The notes under the pieces: model-generated | Seen by the model: the letters and a program-made list of their open reading frames with translations, nothing else | What the model was told of the DNA's origin: nothing | Database searches by the model: none | Position numbers and translations under genes: made by a program | Source of the DNA: a virus | Strand: one strand, 5' to 3' | Length of the DNA stretch: 20,203 nt | Virus record (IMG/VR): IMGVR_UViG_3300025168_000900 | Span: 1-20,203 of that record | Shown here: in pieces, positions 1,419 through 20,203 of the stretch | Position numbering within the stretch: position 1 is the first letter of the stretch | How the letters are laid out: each line of letters opens with the position of its first letter

Positions 1419-2476
1419 TCAACCGCCAAGGCTTCATTATATAGTCCATGCATAAGATTCTTTAATTCTTTTTTATTGTACTTCAAATCCAACCCCTCAA
1501 TGTACCCATCTAATATAGTCATTGTATCCTCAGCTTCATCAATAATGTCAGCATCATCATCCAAGTCAAGATTCAAATGATCATCTACAACTTGTAGATG
1601 GATAGGATTATAGTCTTCCAACAAAGAGATAAAGGAATCAAACATCACTGGATTATTCTTTTCTTTAATAATCAGTTTAATGTAAGAGTCCTCAAGACCA
1701 CTATGTGCAATACCATTAAGATCCTCGTATGTCATATTAGTGTCATCATACCAGATCTTATTAAATAGTATACTACTATTTGGTACAAAAGTCAACAGTC
1801 TTGTATCAGTATCATAGACATGAAATCCTTTAAGATCATCATAACATGACCATGTCATCTCATATGGTGTACCAAGGTATGTAATGTTATCTGTCGTACT
1901 TCTATGATGGAAGTGACCACTATAGACCTGATCAAACTTCTCAAATGCTTTAGGATTACACCCTTCATAGTTTGGCATACCTCTATACATCTGAAACCCA
2001 GTGAGCTCAAGATGACCAAAGCAAACTTGCGCCTTAGTCTTCTCAATCATCTCCCATGTCTTCTCTTCATTGTCTTTACAGATCCATGGAACCAATAGTA
2101 TATCAAGACCATCAATATTGATCTCTGTAGGCTCGCTATACTCAATTATGTTATCATAGCCATCAAGCAATAGATTGATACTATTAACATCTAATGTATT
2201 CTTATAGGTGATATCATGATTGCCTATGATAGTATACATCTTAATGTTACGTTCATACAATGGTTGAAACAACATCTCTTTAGATGTCTTGAGTGATGTG
2301 TATGATATAAACTTTCGTCTATCAAACGTATCACCCAAGTTAACTATCTCTTGTATGTTATTCTCATCTACATAAGGAAAGAATACTTCGTCAAAGAACT
2401 TCTTCTGAAATGCTGCAACCTTTTGATTATCATTGCGAGCACCAAAGTGAAGGTCTGTCAATAATGCAATTTTCAT
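1415..2476 (-). CDS. 47: gp47-like recombination endonuclease, SbcD/Mre11-type nuclease subunit
   Basis: This is the metallophosphoesterase nuclease partner of gp46, 353 residues against about 339 in T4. The expected metal-binding motifs are all present in order: DLHFG near residue 8, GDTFDRR near 48, GNHD near 85, GHLELTG near 154 and SGHFHH near 187. Together they form the two-metal site of Mre11/SbcD enzymes. The C-terminal part is acidic (a DLDDDAD run) and probably contacts gp46. Its ATG follows the gp55 TAA directly (TAAATG) and no good Shine-Dalgarno sequence is visible, so it probably relies on translation of gp55. Its stop overlaps the gp46 start by four bases. Confidence 0.96.
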   Translation of the reverse strand: MKIALLTDLHFGARNDNQKVAAFQKKFFDEVFFPYVDENNIQEIVNLGDTFDRRKFISYTSLKTSKEMLFQPLYERNIKMYTIIGNHDITYKNTLDVNSINLLLDGYDNIIEYSEPTEINIDGLDILLVPWICKDNEEKTWEMIEKTKAQVCFGHLELTGFQMYRGMPNYEGCNPKAFEKFDQVYSGHFHHRSTTDNITYLGTPYEMTWSCYDDLKGFHVYDTDTRLLTFVPNSSILFNKIWYDDTNMTYEDLNGIAHSGLEDSYIKLIIKEKNNPVMFDSFISLLEDYNPIHLQVVDDHLNLDLDDDADIIDEAEDTMTILDGYIEGLDLKYNKKELKNLMHGLYNEALAVE

Positions 2477-3019
2477 TTAAAAATACTTTTCGACACCTTT
2501 GGCTTGCTTACGTTTTTCCTTTGTCTTCACTTCTTTAGCTTCAAAGTTCTTAACAAAGTCATTCATATAGTCACTACCAATTTCTACGTTATTGCCAATA
2601 CCCATATCATCCCCCTCAACTAATGTGTTGAACAATACAGACTGCTCCAATGACTTATGCTTGATGTATAGTTGTTTCTTTTCCTTTTGTATCCTTCTCA
2701 AGAAAGCATAATAGATAATTTGCGTGAAATATGCAAAAGGATTATTAGACTTCTGTGGATCAAAGTTATGAATATAACTAACGCAGTTTTCAATACCATC
2801 GCTAATCATATCATCCTTAAATGTATAGTTAGCAAAGTTAGGTTTAGTCGCTAGTCTATTAGCAATCTGTAGTAAGCAACGTCCAACATAGTTTGGTATC
2901 TGAGGTTTAAGTTCTCCACTCTCTTCAGATTCATTCACAGCATCCTTATACTCAATCATAACAGCATACAATTGCTTGTTATCAACGTAATGAGCCTTGA
3001 CTTTTCTCAACTTAGTCAT
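2477..3019 (-). CDS. 55: gp55-like late-transcription sigma factor
   Basis: This is a 180-residue T4-type sigma factor that directs host RNA polymerase to late promoters with a TATAAATA element. T4 gp55 is 185 residues. The recognisable sigma region 2-like core is around residues 68-115 (DMISDGIENCVSYIHNFDP followed by NPFAYFTQIIYYAFLRRIQ). The lysine-rich tail ending VEKYF fits the C-terminal part that in T4 binds the sliding clamp and the polymerase flap; that assignment is inference. The start ATG shares one base with the stop of the upstream gene (TAATG) and lacks an evident Shine-Dalgarno. Perfect TATAAATA boxes elsewhere in this window are its likely targets. Confidence 0.94.
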   Translation of the reverse strand: MTKLRKVKAHYVDNKQLYAVMIEYKDAVNESEESGELKPQIPNYVGRCLLQIANRLATKPNFANYTFKDDMISDGIENCVSYIHNFDPQKSNNPFAYFTQIIYYAFLRRIQKEKKQLYIKHKSLEQSVLFNTLVEGDDMGIGNNVEIGSDYMNDFVKNFEAKEVKTKEKRKQAKGVEKYF

Positions 3020-3402
3020 TAATGATACGTAGTATTGGCATCGCCAACACCCAGAGCCTCAACCATTTGTTTGGTTCTCTTTCGCTGCTCAGCGATATCT
3101 TCGTTCTGTGAACTCATCTCTGTGTATCCTTCTTTCAAAAATCTTTCATAATTACTGATAATATTTTCATGCAGATCATCTGCAATAGCAATGACCTTAG
3201 ACTTATGGACTGTGATTATATTCGTCTTATTGAATAGCAACCAATGCGAACATTGAATCCATGTCATTCCATTTGGTGAGATAGATCTGTACATAATGAC
3301 AGGATCTTCAAACAAAAGATACTCTCCATCATCTTCAACCACTCTCGTTAGAATCTCTTCACCATTCATTAGCTTTACTAAGCCATAATACCCTGCTGGC
3401 AT
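3019..3402 (-). CDS. conserved hypothetical protein, possible Sm/LSm-like fold
   Basis: This 127-residue protein has no function I can name firmly. Residues 7-75 are rich in predicted beta strands: LVKLMNGEEILTRVVEDD, then an acidic turn, then a strand leading to NIITVHKSKVIAIADD. This pattern, opening with a GEE turn, resembles small Sm/LSm-like barrels. The C-terminal third is helical and charged. It starts two bases after the uvsW stop, with its AAGGAG ribosome-binding site inside the last uvsW codons, and it ends on the gp55 start codon. That places it in one transcript between a helicase and the late sigma factor. The gene is well supported by the tight packing; the fold is a guess from strand pattern. 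Confidence 0.8.
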   Translation of the reverse strand: MPAGYYGLVKLMNGEEILTRVVEDDGEYLLFEDPVIMYRSISPNGMTWIQCSHWLLFNKTNIITVHKSKVIAIADDLHENIISNYERFLKEGYTEMSSQNEDIAEQRKRTKQMVEALGVGDANTTYH

Positions 3403-4838: not shown

Positions 4839-5269
4839 AGACCTACTTTAAACTTTTCCCAATCAACAGCTGTTTTTATTTGAAATCCTCTTATGTTCAA
4901 TGACTTTACTATTGATTCTAAGAACTCAACTTTTTCTTTTGCATATGCTGTTTTTAAGTTATGGTTTGTTATATCTTTATCAGATTCAATATACATTGGA
5001 ATATCTGTTTTAAGAATACGTAAAGGGTTTGGATCCCAACCACGATCAACAAGATCCTCTTCTGCCATTACGCCAGAATAATAATCATATTTGTCTTTCT
5101 TGAGGCCTTTATACTCCTCTTGAAGTTTTACTAACTTCATTCTCTCTTCACTAAAATACCTATAGTATTTATGATGGAGCTGGGGTATACGTATAGATTC
5201 TTCACCTAGCTCAGTTCTATCTATTTTAGAATCTGTAGACCAAGCATCATAATAATCATTTAAGTTCAT
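4835..5269 (-). CDS. uvsY: UvsY-like recombination mediator protein
   Basis: UvsY loads the UvsX recombinase onto single-stranded DNA coated with gp32. The 144-residue length is close to T4's 137. Recognisable features are the helical middle with KLVKLQEEYKGLKKDKYDYYSG, matching T4's KARLDYYSG region, and the C-terminal SLNIRGFQIKTAVDWEKF, matching the T4 SRGFAIKHIQDMRAF end. It overlaps the preceding oxygenase gene by 14 bases and the following uvsW by four, so all three are probably translated from one message. Confidence 0.92.
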   Translation of the reverse strand: MNLNDYYDAWSTDSKIDRTELGEESIRIPQLHHKYYRYFSEERMKLVKLQEEYKGLKKDKYDYYSGVMAEEDLVDRGWDPNPLRILKTDIPMYIESDKDITNHNLKTAYAKEKVEFLESIVKSLNIRGFQIKTAVDWEKFKVGL

Positions 5270-6263
5270 CGATTGCTACCACTAACTTCTGACATCTTTC
5301 ATTATACTGCCCATTGAAGTTCTGGTCAACAAGATTTGCTAACTCAATCATCATTAGTCTCTTATCACCACTGTTGATAACATTGACATATCGTGGAGAG
5401 ACTCCACCAGCCATATCACCATATGATTTGATAAGACGTTCTGCTTCTTTACCAACATGCTTCTCAACTATCTTAGGTGTAAACATATTGACATCATGCT
5501 TCTTATACACATCACCGTACACACTATGCCATAACCCAGCCATACACACTGGCTTCTCTGCACCTAACTGTTCTAAGTACACATATACATTCCATAGATG
5601 ATGAAAGAATGGTCTTCCTGTATGTTCAACTTTAGTTGTATTGTCATACAAATACTTTACACCTTTATCTCCATATTCCAATGGAGCGGTGTTGAATACC
5701 ATAATGGTTTTTTCAAAAGGAGTTATTCTTGATAGAGGTGATGTAGAATGTAACTGTGCACTATCAAAGATAAACATTCTATTATACTTTGGTAACATAG
5801 CAACCTCTACATCTTGACTATCGTCATACAACAGAGTCATTCCATAGTACTTAGGATCCCAATCTTTAGTTAGATATAGGATAGCTGTTTCAAATCCAGG
5901 ATGTGATTGAACTACATCTCCATCTCTTGCTTGTTTATCTGTATGTGGATATGCATCTTGTCCAAAGTGATACGTCTTTGTATACGATCTATACAATGAT
6001 CTCTTACCTATTACATCTTGTAAAACATCAAATGCATCCAACATGATAGGATGGTTTTGATCTATCTCTGGTGATGAACACATATCCCACTGGAAGTGTT
6101 TTGGCTGCTTAACAATATTGTGTTGACCATGACCGTATTCAAATGTGTTACGAGCATGAGACTTCCAACCATGTTGGAACCATGTACAATATTTTCTTTT
6201 GATGTCAAGCAATAGGTCTTCGGAGAAGGCGCCTTCGACGCACTTCGGTTCAATATAACTCAT
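5256..6263 (-). CDS. 2OG-Fe(II) oxygenase fused to a C-terminal HD-like (DUF6817-type) domain
   Basis: The N-terminal half (about residues 1-200) looks like a 2-oxoglutarate/Fe(II) dioxygenase. It has an HxD pair at H107 and D109 (YPHTDKQ), a distal H172 (QLHSTSP) and R179 as a candidate 2OG-binding residue. The C-terminal part (about 210-335) resembles an HD-like domain: HTGRPFFHHLW with H221/H222, GLWHSVYGD with H246, GKEAERLI, and a late acidic position in IELANLVDQ (D313). The canonical HD pair reads HS here, so the metal site may be degenerate or of the DUF6817 type. The substrate is unknown; nucleic acid, protein or a small metabolite are all possible. The start has AGGA six bases upstream of the ATG. 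The gene sits between a tail-tube-like protein and uvsY. Oxygenase confidence is high; the HD assignment is from motif recall. Confidence 0.82.
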   Translation of the reverse strand: MSYIEPKCVEGAFSEDLLLDIKRKYCTWFQHGWKSHARNTFEYGHGQHNIVKQPKHFQWDMCSSPEIDQNHPIMLDAFDVLQDVIGKRSLYRSYTKTYHFGQDAYPHTDKQARDGDVVQSHPGFETAILYLTKDWDPKYYGMTLLYDDSQDVEVAMLPKYNRMFIFDSAQLHSTSPLSRITPFEKTIMVFNTAPLEYGDKGVKYLYDNTTKVEHTGRPFFHHLWNVYVYLEQLGAEKPVCMAGLWHSVYGDVYKKHDVNMFTPKIVEKHVGKEAERLIKSYGDMAGGVSPRYVNVINSGDKRLMMIELANLVDQNFNGQYNERCQKLVVAIDELK

Positions 6264-15946: not shown

Positions 15947-17599
15947 TCACCACGAACCTTCAATCTCATACGGTGTAGCTGTTATCCAATCGTCTGATTT
16001 ATACTTCTGTAAATCATCTTCTGGATCATTAATTCCATCTTGGAAGAATCCAAATGGTAACATTTCTTCTTCAATAGCCTTTTCATTAGCCAGAAGTAAG
16101 TTCTTCCTTATATCTATATCAGTCATTTCTTTAAAGTATTCTTGACCTGTTAACCAAGCAAACAATACTAATGACATCACTAGATCATCATGATATCCTT
16201 CTTCAGCTGAATAGCTTTGTCCTCTTACAACAAATGCTGTCAACTCTTTAAGGATTTCAAAATCATTTATCTTTAAACGATCATTCTCAATGATAGTTTT
16301 TAAACCTGCACAACCAACTCTCTTCAACTGTTTAGTTGTTCGGACACCTAATTGTTGGGACTTACCTCCAAAGCCAGCTGTCAATAGCTGGCCAGCTCTT
16401 CCTCTCCACTCAGCTGTTAATATACCTTCATACTCTAACTCATGATGTAATATATCAGCAACTTGTTGACCTATGTCATTAATCTCGACAAGTACGATAG
16501 CATCATTATACTTACGTGCAGCGTCATAAATAATAGAAGGATATAACATAGGAGCAATAACATTGGATCTATACGTACAAACGACTTCATAAGGCACAGT
16601 AGTACAATCAACAACAGTAAAAGCAGAATAATCATTTCCTATACCTCTTGAAGTATCAACACTGATTGCGTATACATGACCTCTTATTCTTTCATGCCAT
16701 ATCTTCATGTTCTCATTTTGAGATATTGGTTCATGAAAAGTTAATGCTGCTAGCTTACTAGGATTGATTAGAGTGTTAGATGATCCTATGAAGTCACATT
16801 CAAACTCTTGTCTGAATTGTTCCTCACTAGTGTTCTTTATGGTTTGCTCTTTCCACTCCTCATCTCTACCTGGTACAGCAGACCAATGAACTTTGATAGG
16901 AACGTATTCATTTCTACCTTCTTCTGCATCTACCCATAACTTGTAGAACAAGTTCATACCTTTTGGAGTAGATGTAATCATAACTCTTGATGTCTTACCA
17001 GATGAAATGGTAGGATAAACCGATGCAAAGAACTCCTCTTGTAGTTGAGAATCTACGAATGCAAACTCATCAAGATACACTAACGAGAATGAACCACCTC
17101 GTATAGCAGATGATGATGTTGAACTTGCAAGAACTTTACTACCATTTTCTAACTCAAGACTACCTTTGTTCCATTCAACTAGTCCTTGTTGTAACCAATG
17201 AGGTAACCACTCATATGCCATTTGCAATCTACTCAATATCTCACGAGCAGTACTTGCTTTGTTAGCTAAGATAGCACAATTGAATGATTCGTTGAATAAG
17301 ATAAACCAAAGTATAACAGCAACCATTGTTGTTGTCTTACCAGATTGTCGAGGCATTTTACATATAGAGAAACGATTATGAACAACAGACTTCATTATGT
17401 CTAATTGAAAGTCATACAAATCTAGATTGACAACACCTTCATCAATGTTAACAATCTTCATATATGTTTTACAAAAGTATTCAATATCCTTTGAGCATCT
17501 TACAAGCTCTTGGATTTGCTCTTCTGTATAATCTAGTTTAACTCCAGCTTTTTTTAGTCTGGGATTACCTAGATAGATTTCAGTCGGGGATAACTCCAC
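15947..17599 (-). CDS. 17: gp17-like terminase large subunit (packaging ATPase and headful nuclease)
   Basis: This motor protein translocates DNA into the prohead and cuts it at headful completion. The 550 residues (T4 610) include Walker A MPRQSGKTT at 82-90, Walker B LVYLDEF at 173-179 with catalytic E178, and coupling motif TSTPKG at 209-214. The RNase H-like nuclease domain has acidic residues D315 (SVDTSRG), E372 (VEIND) and D471/D472 (YHDDLVMSL). The start is GTG at 17599. An in-frame TAG lies nine bases upstream and the next Met is residue 47, so GTG is the only sensible start. A GAGGAAAG ribosome site lies in the upstream nuclease gene, which it overlaps by 20 bases. Confidence 0.97.
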   Translation of the reverse strand: MELSPTEIYLGNPRLKKAGVKLDYTEEQIQELVRCSKDIEYFCKTYMKIVNIDEGVVNLDLYDFQLDIMKSVVHNRFSICKMPRQSGKTTTMVAVILWFILFNESFNCAILANKASTAREILSRLQMAYEWLPHWLQQGLVEWNKGSLELENGSKVLASSTSSSAIRGGSFSLVYLDEFAFVDSQLQEEFFASVYPTISSGKTSRVMITSTPKGMNLFYKLWVDAEEGRNEYVPIKVHWSAVPGRDEEWKEQTIKNTSEEQFRQEFECDFIGSSNTLINPSKLAALTFHEPISQNENMKIWHERIRGHVYAISVDTSRGIGNDYSAFTVVDCTTVPYEVVCTYRSNVIAPMLYPSIIYDAARKYNDAIVLVEINDIGQQVADILHHELEYEGILTAEWRGRAGQLLTAGFGGKSQQLGVRTTKQLKRVGCAGLKTIIENDRLKINDFEILKELTAFVVRGQSYSAEEGYHDDLVMSLVLFAWLTGQEYFKEMTDIDIRKNLLLANEKAIEEEMLPFGFFQDGINDPEDDLQKYKSDDWITATPYEIEGSW

Positions 17600-18008
17600 G
17601 TTCAGCTAACTTTCCTCTATTGGCAATATGCTCTTCAGCAATATCATCCTTGGATTGACCATGGTATGCAACACCATAGTTATCATTAATCATTGCTTCA
17701 GCCATTTTCATATAACTATTATTGTGCGAAGCATATATTTCAAAGTCTCCTAATATCCTACCATACTTTCCTTTTTCATCTTGGAAAGAATAGAACTTTC
17801 TAGCTGTTGCCATATATCTTTTTACTTGTTCTGTAGCAAGTTTACCAAACTTCTTCTCTTCAGGATCTGACGTTCTTGATTCTGGTGTATCAATTCCCAT
17901 AATTCTGATACGTTGGTTCTGTAACCAAATTCCAAAGCCTAGATCAATATCGATATCAACGGTATCACCATCAACAATCCTAACTAATTTAAAATTATAT
18001 TCATACAT
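17580..18008 (-). CDS. staphylococcal-nuclease (SNase/TNase) homologue
   Basis: This 142-residue protein is an OB-fold SNase-type nuclease. The sequence IVDGDTVDIDID carries the metal Asp (D15). RIRIMGIDTPES aligns so closely that R35, D40 and E43 match the numbering of the classic Staphylococcus enzyme, and KYGR supplies R84 for the second catalytic Arg. All catalytic positions appear intact. No signal peptide is seen, so it should act in the infected cell. The ATG at 18008 is preferred; the longer frame to 18071 begins with GTG and adds 21 non-family residues. AAGGA lies about 11 bases upstream. It stands between small and large terminase genes, which in T4 are adjacent. A role in packaging or in degrading host DNA is speculation. 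Confidence 0.9.
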   Translation of the reverse strand: MYEYNFKLVRIVDGDTVDIDIDLGFGIWLQNQRIRIMGIDTPESRTSDPEEKKFGKLATEQVKRYMATARKFYSFQDEKGKYGRILGDFEIYASHNNSYMKMAEAMINDNYGVAYHGQSKDDIAEEHIANRGKLAERGVIPD

Positions 18009-18061
18009 CCGTTGACTTGTCCTTCTTTTGGTATATAATAAACTATGTGGCCCGGACAGTA

Positions 18062-19102
18062 CTAAGCCCACTTACTCTCATCACCTTCTATTGCCCAGTC
18101 TCTATATGAATAGAGTTGTCCCTTTAAGTTATTTATAGTCTTTACAGATCGATCATTATTGACAATATCATAGATATCATCCATATAGCAAGAGTTGAAT
18201 GTTCTATATGGACTAGAGAAATAGGTCTCTCCAGTAGCCATATTTAAATAATGATTAGTATCATGCGATAGTACTTCTCTATCAAACCACTTCCATTGTT
18301 CTTGTGAGCTCTTTTGTCTTGGCATCCATCTATCTAGTTCAGGAAAATGATGAAAGAAATACATATTCTTCATTATCTTATCCCATGAATGATTAACAAT
18401 ATCACTTTCATACCACATATCCAATTGTTCTCTAAGAACATCATCATACCATGATGCGTGGATTATAGGATTGTCCTCAAAGAACTCAGTGTTCTCAATA
18501 CCAATAACATGACATCCCAATGATCTAAATCTTCTAAGGCCTTGTTCAAATCCTTGGATAGGTGAATTTTCCATATATCTATTGATAACAGGAGCACCAG
18601 TGCCCCAAACAATAAAGTCATTCTCTGGATCAATTGACTCATGACTAAGTAATGCTGTCTCGGAGGTTGCATAAACGGGACAAGGAAACATATCAATAAA
18701 AGTATTTTGATAGTAATCTGATTTTGCAAACTCTACAACATTAACATTTTGTATTATTTCTGGAACGAAGTTTTGAAATTCTCTTAGGTTTGTAGACTCA
18801 TAATGATTCAATATGTTGTTTCTAAATTGATATACTTGATGTATCTTTATATGTTCTATTTCTAATTTATCAAAAACGTATGCAATGATTGCACTATCGC
18901 AGCCACCACTGACTGGCAATACCAATCTTTTATTTGTTCTTTCTCTGAGTCTTAATGCTGCATCAAAGCAAGCCTCTCTGAATGTCATCTTGGTTTTTTC
19001 AAACCTCTGCATCCAGTGAAAGCCTTTTTCGTTTATTATATAACTCTTACCAGCATAGTCAGGATCACCACTATGGAAGACGTATTCATTTTTTAGGTTC
19101 AT
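18062..19102 (-). CDS. PP-loop ATP-pyrophosphatase, asparagine-synthetase-like (AANH superfamily)
   Basis: This 346-residue protein has a clear PP-loop, VSGGCDSA, at residues 64-71, preceded by a strand (KRLVLP) and followed by a helix. That is the ATP-binding signature of enzymes that adenylate a substrate and release pyrophosphate. A second loop at 165-176 (VWGTGAPVINRY) recalls the GxGGDE..GY region of asparagine synthetase, and the C-terminal SPYRTFNSCYMDDIYDIV with a later Lys (LKGQLYS) recalls its last segment. There is no N-terminal glutaminase domain, so it would need ammonia or another donor, or act on tRNA, a nucleobase or a peptide. It overlaps gp16 by 17 bases and precedes the SNase gene. 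The superfamily is secure; the reaction is not known. Confidence 0.85.
   Translation of the reverse strand: MNLKNEYVFHSGDPDYAGKSYIINEKGFHWMQRFEKTKMTFREACFDAALRLRERTNKRLVLPVSGGCDSAIIAYVFDKLEIEHIKIHQVYQFRNNILNHYESTNLREFQNFVPEIIQNVNVVEFAKSDYYQNTFIDMFPCPVYATSETALLSHESIDPENDFIVWGTGAPVINRYMENSPIQGFEQGLRRFRSLGCHVIGIENTEFFEDNPIIHASWYDDVLREQLDMWYESDIVNHSWDKIMKNMYFFHHFPELDRWMPRQKSSQEQWKWFDREVLSHDTNHYLNMATGETYFSSPYRTFNSCYMDDIYDIVNNDRSVKTINNLKGQLYSYRDWAIEGDESKWA
18130..18137 (-). promoter_or_regulatory. possible internal late promoter box TATAAATA within the PP-loop gene
   Basis: The minus strand reads TATAAATA inside the last 80 bases of the PP-loop coding sequence. Initiation would be near 18124, about 115 bases before the SNase start, and could feed SNase, gp17 and beyond. 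It may also be chance, since the codons encode ordinary residues. Confidence 0.4.
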
Positions 19103-19562
19103 TGTTTAACAACTGACTCCTGGCGTTGCCACCCAATAGTTTAGTTAGGTCTGCATTGGTTCCAACAAATAAGTTATTTGTTACTTTATCAGGTCCACCT
19201 TTACCTTTAGGATCTGACAATATATCTTTTGCCTTAGCTTGTAAGTCTACAATCTTTTCATTTGTATCTGTTAATGTTTTTATTAGTTGACCTACAACCT
19301 CATATGCTCTAGGATGTTGAGACTGATTAGCAAGATCAAGTATACCATCTAATGCATCTCTACCTCTTTCAGCTAGATGATATAAATTTTCTCTGGCATA
19401 CTCTATATCTTTTTCTGTTGATTCTTTTCCTGTGGCTGGTACATTTTTGGGTGCCTCTTTTGATGAGTGTATAGACAAAGGGGCAGTGTTAGGACTGATA
19501 TCCAAAGCAGCAGCAATAGGATCAGCATGAGCATTAAAAGGTCTATCCTGTTCCATCACCAT
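19086..19562 (-). CDS. 16: gp16-like terminase small subunit
   Basis: The small terminase forms a ring that recognises DNA and regulates the gp17 motor. From the chosen start it is 158 residues (T4 164). The first part is disordered and proline-rich. The central helices (EKDIEYARENLYHLAERGRDALDGILDLANQ and YEVVGQLIKTLTDTNEKIVDLQAKAKDI) fit the antiparallel coiled coil of T4-type small terminases. The C-terminus ends NNLFVGTNADLTKLL. The frame is open up to 19601, but the ATG at 19562 has GAGGAG (19570-19575) seven bases upstream; a second ATG at 19556 is possible. It overlaps the end of gp15 by 20 bases. Confidence 0.92.
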   Translation of the reverse strand: MVMEQDRPFNAHADPIAAALDISPNTAPLSIHSSKEAPKNVPATGKESTEKDIEYARENLYHLAERGRDALDGILDLANQSQHPRAYEVVGQLIKTLTDTNEKIVDLQAKAKDILSDPKGKGGPDKVTNNLFVGTNADLTKLLGGNARSQLLNNEPKK

Positions 19563-20203
19563 CGAAGAACTCCTCAAAGTTAGATATATAATCATAATCA
19601 TCAGTTGACTTTATAGATGACGCATCTATTGTTAATGATGCATTTGTAGTTGGTGAACCATTAGCCAGCAAGCCTGGTGTGGTTGTTGTGCGAGAGTGAA
19701 GTGTGAATTGTGTACCATTTGAATGGCTTGTTTCAATTGTCTTCACTGTTGTGTTAGATGGGTGTACATTAGCAAACTTAGTTGTTGTATCAACATAAAA
19801 CATTGTGTTAGCTTTCTTGATAACACCAGTCTTACTTACAGGGCCAAACAATTGTCCTTTCACTGTAAATGTAAGAGTGTGTATCAAAGCTCGTCTTGTT
19901 TGAAAGTCTGCTTCATATGTATCTGATATTGTTACAGCTTCTAGAACAACTGGAATATCAATCTTCCAATCCATCTCTGGAATCAACTCAGCTGTAACAG
20001 TAAACTCTGGTGTGAAGAATGGCATAATCTGTTCAAGTATCTTTGTTGAGTCTTCAGCATATCTAGTAAATATATTCAACTCAATATTGATATCATATGG
20101 AACAGGGTTATACATTGTTCTTAGATTGGCATTGTTATTGACATCATGTATTGCAACATTTCTACGTACAGTGTTTAGCTTACGCTCTGTTGCATATGAC
20201 ATT
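19543..20203 (-). CDS. 15: gp15-like tail sheath stabiliser / tail completion protein (partial, 5' end outside window)
   Basis: gp15 forms the ring that caps the tail tube and sheath and joins the tail to the head. The visible part is 219 residues from a Met at 20202, with the family stretch MYNPVPYDINIELNIFTRY near residues 30-48 and EQIMPFFTPEFTVTAELIPEMDWKIDIPVVL shortly after. T4 gp15 is about 272 residues and this conserved motif lies well inside it. The Met at 20202 is therefore probably internal and the true start lies past the right edge. The C-terminus is a Thr/Ser-rich then acidic tail. It overlaps gp16 by 20 bases. Confidence 0.92.
   Translation of the reverse strand, partial: MSYATERKLNTVRRNVAIHDVNNNANLRTMYNPVPYDINIELNIFTRYAEDSTKILEQIMPFFTPEFTVTAELIPEMDWKIDIPVVLEAVTISDTYEADFQTRRALIHTLTFTVKGQLFGPVSKTGVIKKANTMFYVDTTTKFANVHPSNTTVKTIETSHSNGTQFTLHSRTTTTPGLLANGSPTTNASLTIDASSIKSTDDYDYISNFEEFFDGDGTG

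Follow-up and report, generated by a model that had tools for sequence, protein, structure and literature searches.

What could a PP-loop protein encoded between the two terminase genes of a T4-like phage contribute to its host virus? The question is raised by the window, i.e., the whole stretch of 20,203 nucleotides analyzed here (positions 1 to 20,203 of IMG/VR record IMGVR_UViG_3300025168_000900), whose preliminary description had placed an asparagine-synthetase-like ATPase between gp16 and gp17 and contrasted this with T4, in which the two genes are adjacent.

Gene order and constraint on the PP-loop gene

On the minus strand, the genes are arranged in the order gp15, gp16, PP-loop gene, SNase-like gene and gp17, followed by gp18 and gp19 (Table 1). 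The PP-loop gene does lie between the two terminase genes, but it is not alone there, since the interval also contains the SNase-like gene. ORF calling confirmed the 346-residue frame, which has an ATG start, the SGGCDSA loop at residues 65–71 and the 17-base overlap with the gp16 ORF (19086–19102). The described lack of a glutaminase domain was likewise confirmed: only 64 of the 346 residues precede the PP-loop, and none of the family models extends over the N-terminus. Homologs of the SNase-like protein begin at the codon equivalent to position 18008, and the product (17583–18008, minus strand) matches the PADLOC model of an SNc+LTD protein with an E-value of 4e-9. In the structural block of the window, an ORF at 5256–6263 (minus strand) was found to fuse a 2OG-Fe(II) oxygenase domain to DUF6817 (PF20680, E 5.3e-16).

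Table 1. Coordinates of the features in and around the gp16–gp17 interval of the window
Feature	Coordinates	Strand	Evidence or remark
gp15, tail sheath stabilizer, cut by the window end	19543..20202	-	PF16724, phrog_227
gp16, terminase small subunit	19086..19601	-	PF11053 (E 2.5e-8), phrog_445
PP-loop gene, subfamily A, ATP-pyrophosphatase-type	18062..19102	-	ORF calling, homologs, alignment, dN/dS
PP-loop SGGCDSA, residues 65–71	18890..18910	-	alignment of homologs
Lys264 codon	18311..18313	-	weak candidate for the catalytic Lys; contradicted by the motif test
TATAAATA, T4-late-promoter-like, within the 3' end of the PP-loop gene and ahead of SNase–gp17	18130..18137	-	
SNase-like gene, probable start 18008	17580..18071	-	PF00565 (E 8.5e-10), phrog_452 (E 1.9e-31)
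gp17, terminase large subunit	15947..17599	-	PF03237 (E 4.9e-27), PF17289

The PP-loop gene is under purifying selection. Its reading frame is kept in homologs at 79–81% and at 49% identity, and dN/dS amounts to 0.100–0.140 in all six pairs of the window's subfamily (A) and to 0.078–0.114 in all three pairs of a paralogous subfamily (B); a third subfamily (C), with too few changes, was left out of these figures. In the 15-row family alignment, loop residues S65, G66, G67 and S70 are invariant in all 14 covering rows, as is K264, and D69 is replaced by Glu in subfamily C. The other columns that are invariant wherever covered are K127, S128, Q132, D210, N211, P212, K245 and F253-P254-E255, and none of the invariant columns of this alignment is a cysteine. 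The gene diverges faster than its neighbors, with 79–81% identity versus 92–97% for gp16 and gp17; in the more distant contig L054, the PP-loop protein is 49% identical to that of the window, versus 86–93% for gp16 and gp17.

A PP-loop family with three subfamilies

Viral scans, together with the locus survey, revealed three subfamilies, and the alignment-based viral scans returned no member beyond them. Subfamily A, to which the window protein belongs, is represented in other contigs at 79–100% identity and carries SGGCDSA. Subfamily C (L054/L135, L134, L136, L137 and L138) is 46–49% identical to the window protein, and its L054 member occupies the same slot. Subfamily B comprises four contigs at 26–28% identity, in which the gene is located elsewhere than between gp16 and gp17, and its loop reads SGGADS. 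The 128,318-base contig G001 carries both A and B; its subfamily B paralog (G001:15926–16885) was detected by phmmer at E 1.2e-17, and BLASTP aligned A with B at 23% identity over 311 residues (E 5e-24). Of the findings that would refute the preliminary description by its own account, absence from all relatives was not observed, as the gene is present in close relatives, and loss of the ATP site was observed in part: the loop is kept in A and B, and in all five subfamily C contigs (L054 4492–5532, L134, L136, L137, L138) it reads SGGAES, with Asp replaced by Glu.

The family has a narrow distribution. Members were found in only 6 of the 34 records searched, and an alignment-based scan of genome contigs identified none. 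A tblastn search of 50,697 phage records detected no relative of the window protein at E ≤ 10 or of the paralog at E ≤ 0.01. Among 398 bacterial genomes from the phylum of Bacterioplanes sanyensis (G033), only three gave matches at E ≤ 0.01, none of which spans more than 46 profile positions or represents a full-length homolog; by eye, these were one asparagine-synthetase-like ORF, the top match (E 4.5e-5, 46 profile positions), and two MnmA-like ORFs. PADLOC gave no match for the PP-loop protein, and no description of the family was found in the literature searched. None of Pfam, NCBIfam, PHROGs and PADLOC covers this PP-loop family. As for the host, a protein of G001 that was assigned by eye as a PstS-like phosphate-binding protein (L030:11173–12159, minus strand) shares 54% identity with a locus of Bacterioplanes sanyensis, which is a weak hint.

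The gp16–gp17 interval is a variable region

To describe the slot, we used the best 80 of at least 599 gp17 loci matched in a viral scan. The PP-loop gene is present in eight of the ten loci of this set in which gp17 is at least 92% identical; the remaining two, L051 and L060, are contigs cut inside SNase and gp17. It was found in none of the other 70 of these best 80 loci, i.e., in 0/9 at 79–88% gp17 identity, 0/17 at 69–74%, 0/16 at 63–68% and 0/28 at 55–62%; both gp16 and gp17 are visible in 56 of the 70 (6, 11, 15 and 24 by descending band). The expected conservation between gp16 and gp17 therefore holds for close relatives and not for the remaining loci, and among the surveyed loci only a single clade of marine T4-like phages, all uncultured, carries the gene. 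Wherever a contig shows its neighbors, these are gp16 and SNase.

The rest of the interval changes with distance. Within the same best 80 of at least 599 loci, SNase is present in all 17 scorable loci at 69–88% gp17 identity, and it is the sole gene of the interval in at least two of them (L055, L056); gp16 abuts gp17 in 15/15 scorable loci at 63–68% and in 16/24 at 55–62%. The SNase-like gene is a recurrent companion of gp17 at gp17 identities of 69% and above. Other cargo, read or named by eye from translations, includes an MscS-like ORF before SNase in L062 and other loci, unknown ORFs in L059 and L061, PAP2-like and kinase-like ORFs in L104 and L114, and a PurM-like ORF in L109.

A comparable arrangement is found in cyanophages. 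Upstream of gp17, Syn33 and S-BM1 carry, among others, genes for plastocyanin, ferredoxin and PTOX as well as gnd and zwf; gp17 itself is adjoined by a PF00565 or endonuclease gene. The g15–g18 region of cyanomyoviruses is described as hypervariable, with 4 to 14 inserted genes (Millard et al. 2009, cited in PMC2984593). That region agrees with the interval analyzed here in its position, in the SNase adjoining gp17 and in its variable cargo. The cargo itself differs, being a PP-loop enzyme here and photosynthesis or pentose-phosphate genes there, and the window's phages were not identified as cyanophages. Judged by the relatives, the cyanophages and PMC2984593, the place of insertion is not unusual but belongs to a type of variable region already known. 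Since the interval is empty or variously filled in relatives, marine T4-like phages commonly vary at the gp16–gp17 position, and what is out of the ordinary is the PP-loop cargo.

Two insertions between gp17 and gp18, assigned by eye as a sulfotransferase-like ORF in L054 (7650–8231) and an unknown ORF in L068 (4095–4741), extend the variable region past gp17. In L078 (1468–3129), gp17 is represented by two adjacent ORFs, 1468–2229 and 2233–3129, a split that could reflect an in-frame stop codon, an error in sequencing or some intervening change.

A late-promoter-like site embedded in the PP-loop gene

In its 3' end, the PP-loop gene contains TATAAATA, which resembles a T4 late promoter. The window has six copies, all on the coding (minus) strand, versus 1.6 expected, and the stretch from gp15 to the PP-loop gene has none. 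The embedded copy spans the codons for KTINN and occurs at the same place in all 11 of the subfamily A and C contigs examined (e.g., L009 6966, L054 5454, L134 4713); within 400 bases upstream of SNase, none was found in ten loci that lack the PP-loop gene. Codon conservation around the site is not striking by itself: between the window and L054, the codon is kept in 89 of 155 identical-residue columns, and in 10 of 17 for Ile/Asn. From this arrangement of consensus matches we infer late co-transcription of gp15, gp16 and the PP-loop gene, together with a separate late start for SNase–gp17. The earlier proposal that the gene is built into the packaging transcript agrees with the gp16 overlap, but SNase and gp17 may be transcribed separately from the site in its 3' end.

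Assignment within the PP-loop enzymes

The best family matches of the window protein are weak, cover only the ATP loop and belong to PP-loop families, not to any non-PP-loop family (NAD_synthase, 0.1; PP-loop family, 0.11; TtuA, 0.0093; lasso cyclase, 0.011). Pfam, NCBIfam and PHROGs yielded only sub-threshold loop matches, also when the subfamilies were included in Pfam rescans, and an LB_053-family match of NCBIfam to L054 (E 1.3e-4, 21.3 bits) falls far under its cut-off of 200. Of the label "asparagine-synthetase-like PP-loop", the second half stands, but the first is not supported by sequence models, as a PF00733 search of the window record, G002 and G005 found nothing up to an E-value of 10. 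In the same search, the PF00733 match in G001 was its QueC-like gene, and CmoY, an asparagine-synthetase homolog of phage S-B43, was recovered at E 4.4e-15.

Profile–profile comparison with CmoY, AsnB, MnmA, QueC and 30 AsnS domains aligned 20 to 46 columns of the loop, and the best values, 3.9e-7 for a single-sequence AsnB and 4.6e-8 for a two-sequence MnmA, favor no branch. Global hhalign runs gave no useful alignment, and full-length NadE, GuaA and TilS profiles gave none outside the loop. Inspection by eye revealed no second motif of the GxGxDE type. The C-terminal segment K245...HFPE...K264S..W.WF resembles, by eye, the AsnS pattern K.LLR...LP...R.K.GF..P...W, in which the catalytic lysine of AsnS sits on the R.K.GF segment; this likeness was not used as evidence, because 184 of 200 column-shuffled profiles scored as high.

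Two groups of enzymes can be set aside more readily. QueC has conserved zinc-binding cysteines, and the thiolases TtuA, MnmA, TtcA and LarE have conserved catalytic or Fe-S cysteines. The window family, in which no cysteine is invariant, is therefore unlikely to belong to either, the more so as G001 has a separate QueC-like gene; like QueC, which is common in phages, it is nevertheless a PP-loop enzyme. The branch check proposed in the preliminary description thus made QueC and the thiolases unlikely, but did not tell the Asn_synthase, NAD synthase, GMP synthase and TilS branches apart for the window protein.

A first structure model (8 rows, pLDDT 33.4) was unusable. The second reached a mean pLDDT of 46.9 and a pTM of 0.56, with residues 40–125 mostly at 60–82, and predicts the SGGxDS loop after a helix, followed by a Rossmann-like core. 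A Foldseek search against the PDB returned nothing at E ≤ 0.001; its leaders were all PP-loop enzymes (NAD, GMP and asparagine synthetases, TtuA, TilS and LarE), and at this model quality the HUP/adenine-nucleotide-alpha-hydrolase-like fold of the superfamily is a tentative assignment. In a viral structure library, the best matches were uncharacterized Caudovirales proteins and proteins named asparagine synthase. VIA-align gave Z-scores of 8.9 for beta-lactam synthetase (169 residues, rmsd 3.8), 8.3 for both GuaA (142 residues) and NadE (147), 8.2 for LarE (140), 8.1 for E. coli AsnB (170) and 8.0 for carbapenam synthetase (164), where differences under 1 count as ties. The AsnS-type enzymes align with the model over more residues than the others do, and the invariant K264 is where the alignments with beta-lactam and asparagine synthetases stop, a position which we take to be near the catalytic lysine of the AsnS family. 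Because the AsnS-type alignments are the longest and end at K264, an AMP-forming amide ligase is preferred, with no claim of family membership. The window protein shares with the PF00733 family, exemplified by beta-lactam and carbapenam synthetases, the PP-loop with its upstream helix and the best, albeit tied, structural match; it differs in having no glutaminase domain, no profile match, no second motif and a C-terminal half that is not alignable. In this comparison, AMP-forming amide ligase chemistry is the simplest reading.

Possible functions of the PP-loop protein

We give about even chances to the reading that the gene is accessory cargo of the hypervariable region and encodes a PP-loop AMP-forming ligase, probably late and acting on a product of tailoring. 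The SGGxDS loop would bind ATP, the substrate would be adenylated at a carboxyl (or carbonyl) group, releasing pyrophosphate, and attack of an amine on the adenylated group would form an amide or amidine. Since there is no glutaminase domain, the amine would probably be free ammonia or an amino compound. Expression would probably be late, together with gp15 and gp16, and the most likely substrate would be a product of the phage's own tailoring enzymes, either a modified DNA base or a sugar or surface glycan.

The surroundings of the paralog bear on these two substrates. In G001, the subfamily B gene neighbors a B12-type radical SAM protein (PF04055, E 8e-16) and a PhyH dioxygenase (E 1.5e-24); a NodU-type carbamoyltransferase (E 5.5e-45) follows two ORFs downstream of it, and a glycosyltransferase-like ORF is nearby. 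The cluster also includes the QueC-like protein and continues with a run of radical SAM proteins, several of them SPASM-like. The gene order of the cluster is the same in G031. The stretch L026:13307–L027:9808 (G001:13307–28811) holds two PP-loop proteins and a DUF6071 protein among the radical SAM genes. The structural block of G001 is preceded by a radical SAM gene, a weak Asp/Asn-hydroxylase match and matches to the glycosyltransferase family phrog_1962. The same contig encodes GTP cyclohydrolase I (5.6e-56), a PTPS/QueD-like protein (6.9e-16), a weak radical SAM protein resembling QueE by eye (the three at L032:3940–7273) and the QueC-like protein (L026:16860–17510), which matches PF06508 at E 4.2e-8 but scores 22.5 bits against 150.3 for TIGR00364; the contig with these genes has no tRNA gene, and the TGT/DpdA-type family PF01702 had no match in any of seven records, G001 included. 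These contexts are leads for glycan or nucleobase chemistry and not tests of the window gene.

A more specific role in tailoring sugars or surface glycans, e.g., by amidation of uronic acids that alters the host surface or decorates the virion, is unlikely, although it has several points in its favor. Besides the carbamoyltransferase and glycosyltransferase-like ORF near the paralog and the phrog_1962 matches upstream of the structural block, phage HTVC008M encodes a carbamoyltransferase followed by a PP-loop protein annotated as NadE and a UDP-glucose/GDP-mannose dehydrogenase. The host-recognition islands of pelagimyophages are described as carrying glycosyltransferases and radical-SAM cassettes (PMC7029224). 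The HTVC008M PP-loop protein, however, falls outside the family (score 7.1, E 0.052), and the window gene is not in a glycan-type cluster, being flanked by gp16 and SNase wherever these are visible. In a contig of marine virus AG-345-D19 (L234 2588–3970, 5868–7953), an ORF that appears amidinotransferase-like by eye stands near a carbamoyltransferase 50.8% identical to that of G001, with a radical-SAM-like ORF close by.

DNA-base hypermodification, in which a CmoY-like ligase would add an amine to a carboxylated phage-DNA base late, before packaging, is rather improbable. CmoY, the AsnS homolog from a marine Kyanoviridae phage, acts on a DNA base, ligating glycine to 5-carboxymethylcytosine, and the same work reports 2,251 sequences of such ligases, for which several amine specificities are possible (PMC12783734). 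The position of the window gene in the packaging region, its overlap with gp16 and its late-type promoter site would suit such a role, as would the set of GTP cyclohydrolase I, PTPS/QueD-like, weak QueE-like and QueC-like proteins in G001, which points to modified-nucleobase chemistry. CmoY (Synechococcus phage S-B43, 271 aa) and the window protein are both glutaminase-free PP-loop proteins of marine T4-like phages, but CmoY is a clear PF00733 member and its gene adjoins CmoA and CmoX outside the terminase slot, neither of which applies to the window protein. The two are unrelated beyond the loop: BLASTP gave E 0.86 over 13 residues, and hhalign aligned 20–28 loop columns only. Neither the C5 methylase family PF00145 for CmoX nor TIGR00740 for CmoA was found in any of nine records, most of which are, or may be, fragments, and PF01702 was missing from all seven records noted above. 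CmoY is by analogy a precedent in mechanism only.

It is very doubtful that the protein is a NAD synthetase-, GMP synthetase- or TilS-like enzyme supporting phage DNA synthesis or translation. Weak loop matches to NAD_synthase, NadE and TilS, and the GuaA and NadE folds that tie with AsnS-type ones, are what suggests it, but all of the scores are far under the curated cut-offs (PF02540, 12.1 bits versus 21; TIGR00552, 12.2 versus 63.65), the full-length profiles do not align beyond the loop, none of the 398 bacterial genomes has a full-length homolog, and NAD synthetase, GMP synthetase and TilS are already encoded by bacteria. Equally doubtful, in our estimate, is an extended form of the ligase reading, namely a phage-restricted enzyme, fixed in one clade between the terminase subunits and expressed late, that would form a bond new to phages, such as an amide or amidine on packaged DNA, a virion protein or a glycan, with the paralog working in a multi-radical-SAM pathway and the SGGAES subfamily pointing to altered chemistry. 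A degenerate, non-catalytic protein with a structural, regulatory or counter-defense role in assembly, which the SGGAES loop of subfamily C and the faster evolution of the gene relative to gp16 and gp17 might suggest, is the least credible, as the full SGGxDS loop is kept between subfamilies A and B at 26–28% identity, dN/dS is about 0.08–0.14 and PADLOC finds no match.

Implications for marine T4-like phages

The locus holds a constrained, clade-restricted accessory gene whose PP-loop family has no description in the libraries searched; the variable slot was already known. The embedded late-promoter-like site would account for continued expression of gp17 despite the insertion. If the protein is an AMP-forming ligase, it would represent a new enzyme family in the phage modification toolbox, beside CmoY, and a tractable target, being 346 aa long and having homologs with natural loop variants; the gp16–gp17 slot of marine T4-like phages beyond the described cyanophages would also take up biosynthetic genes.
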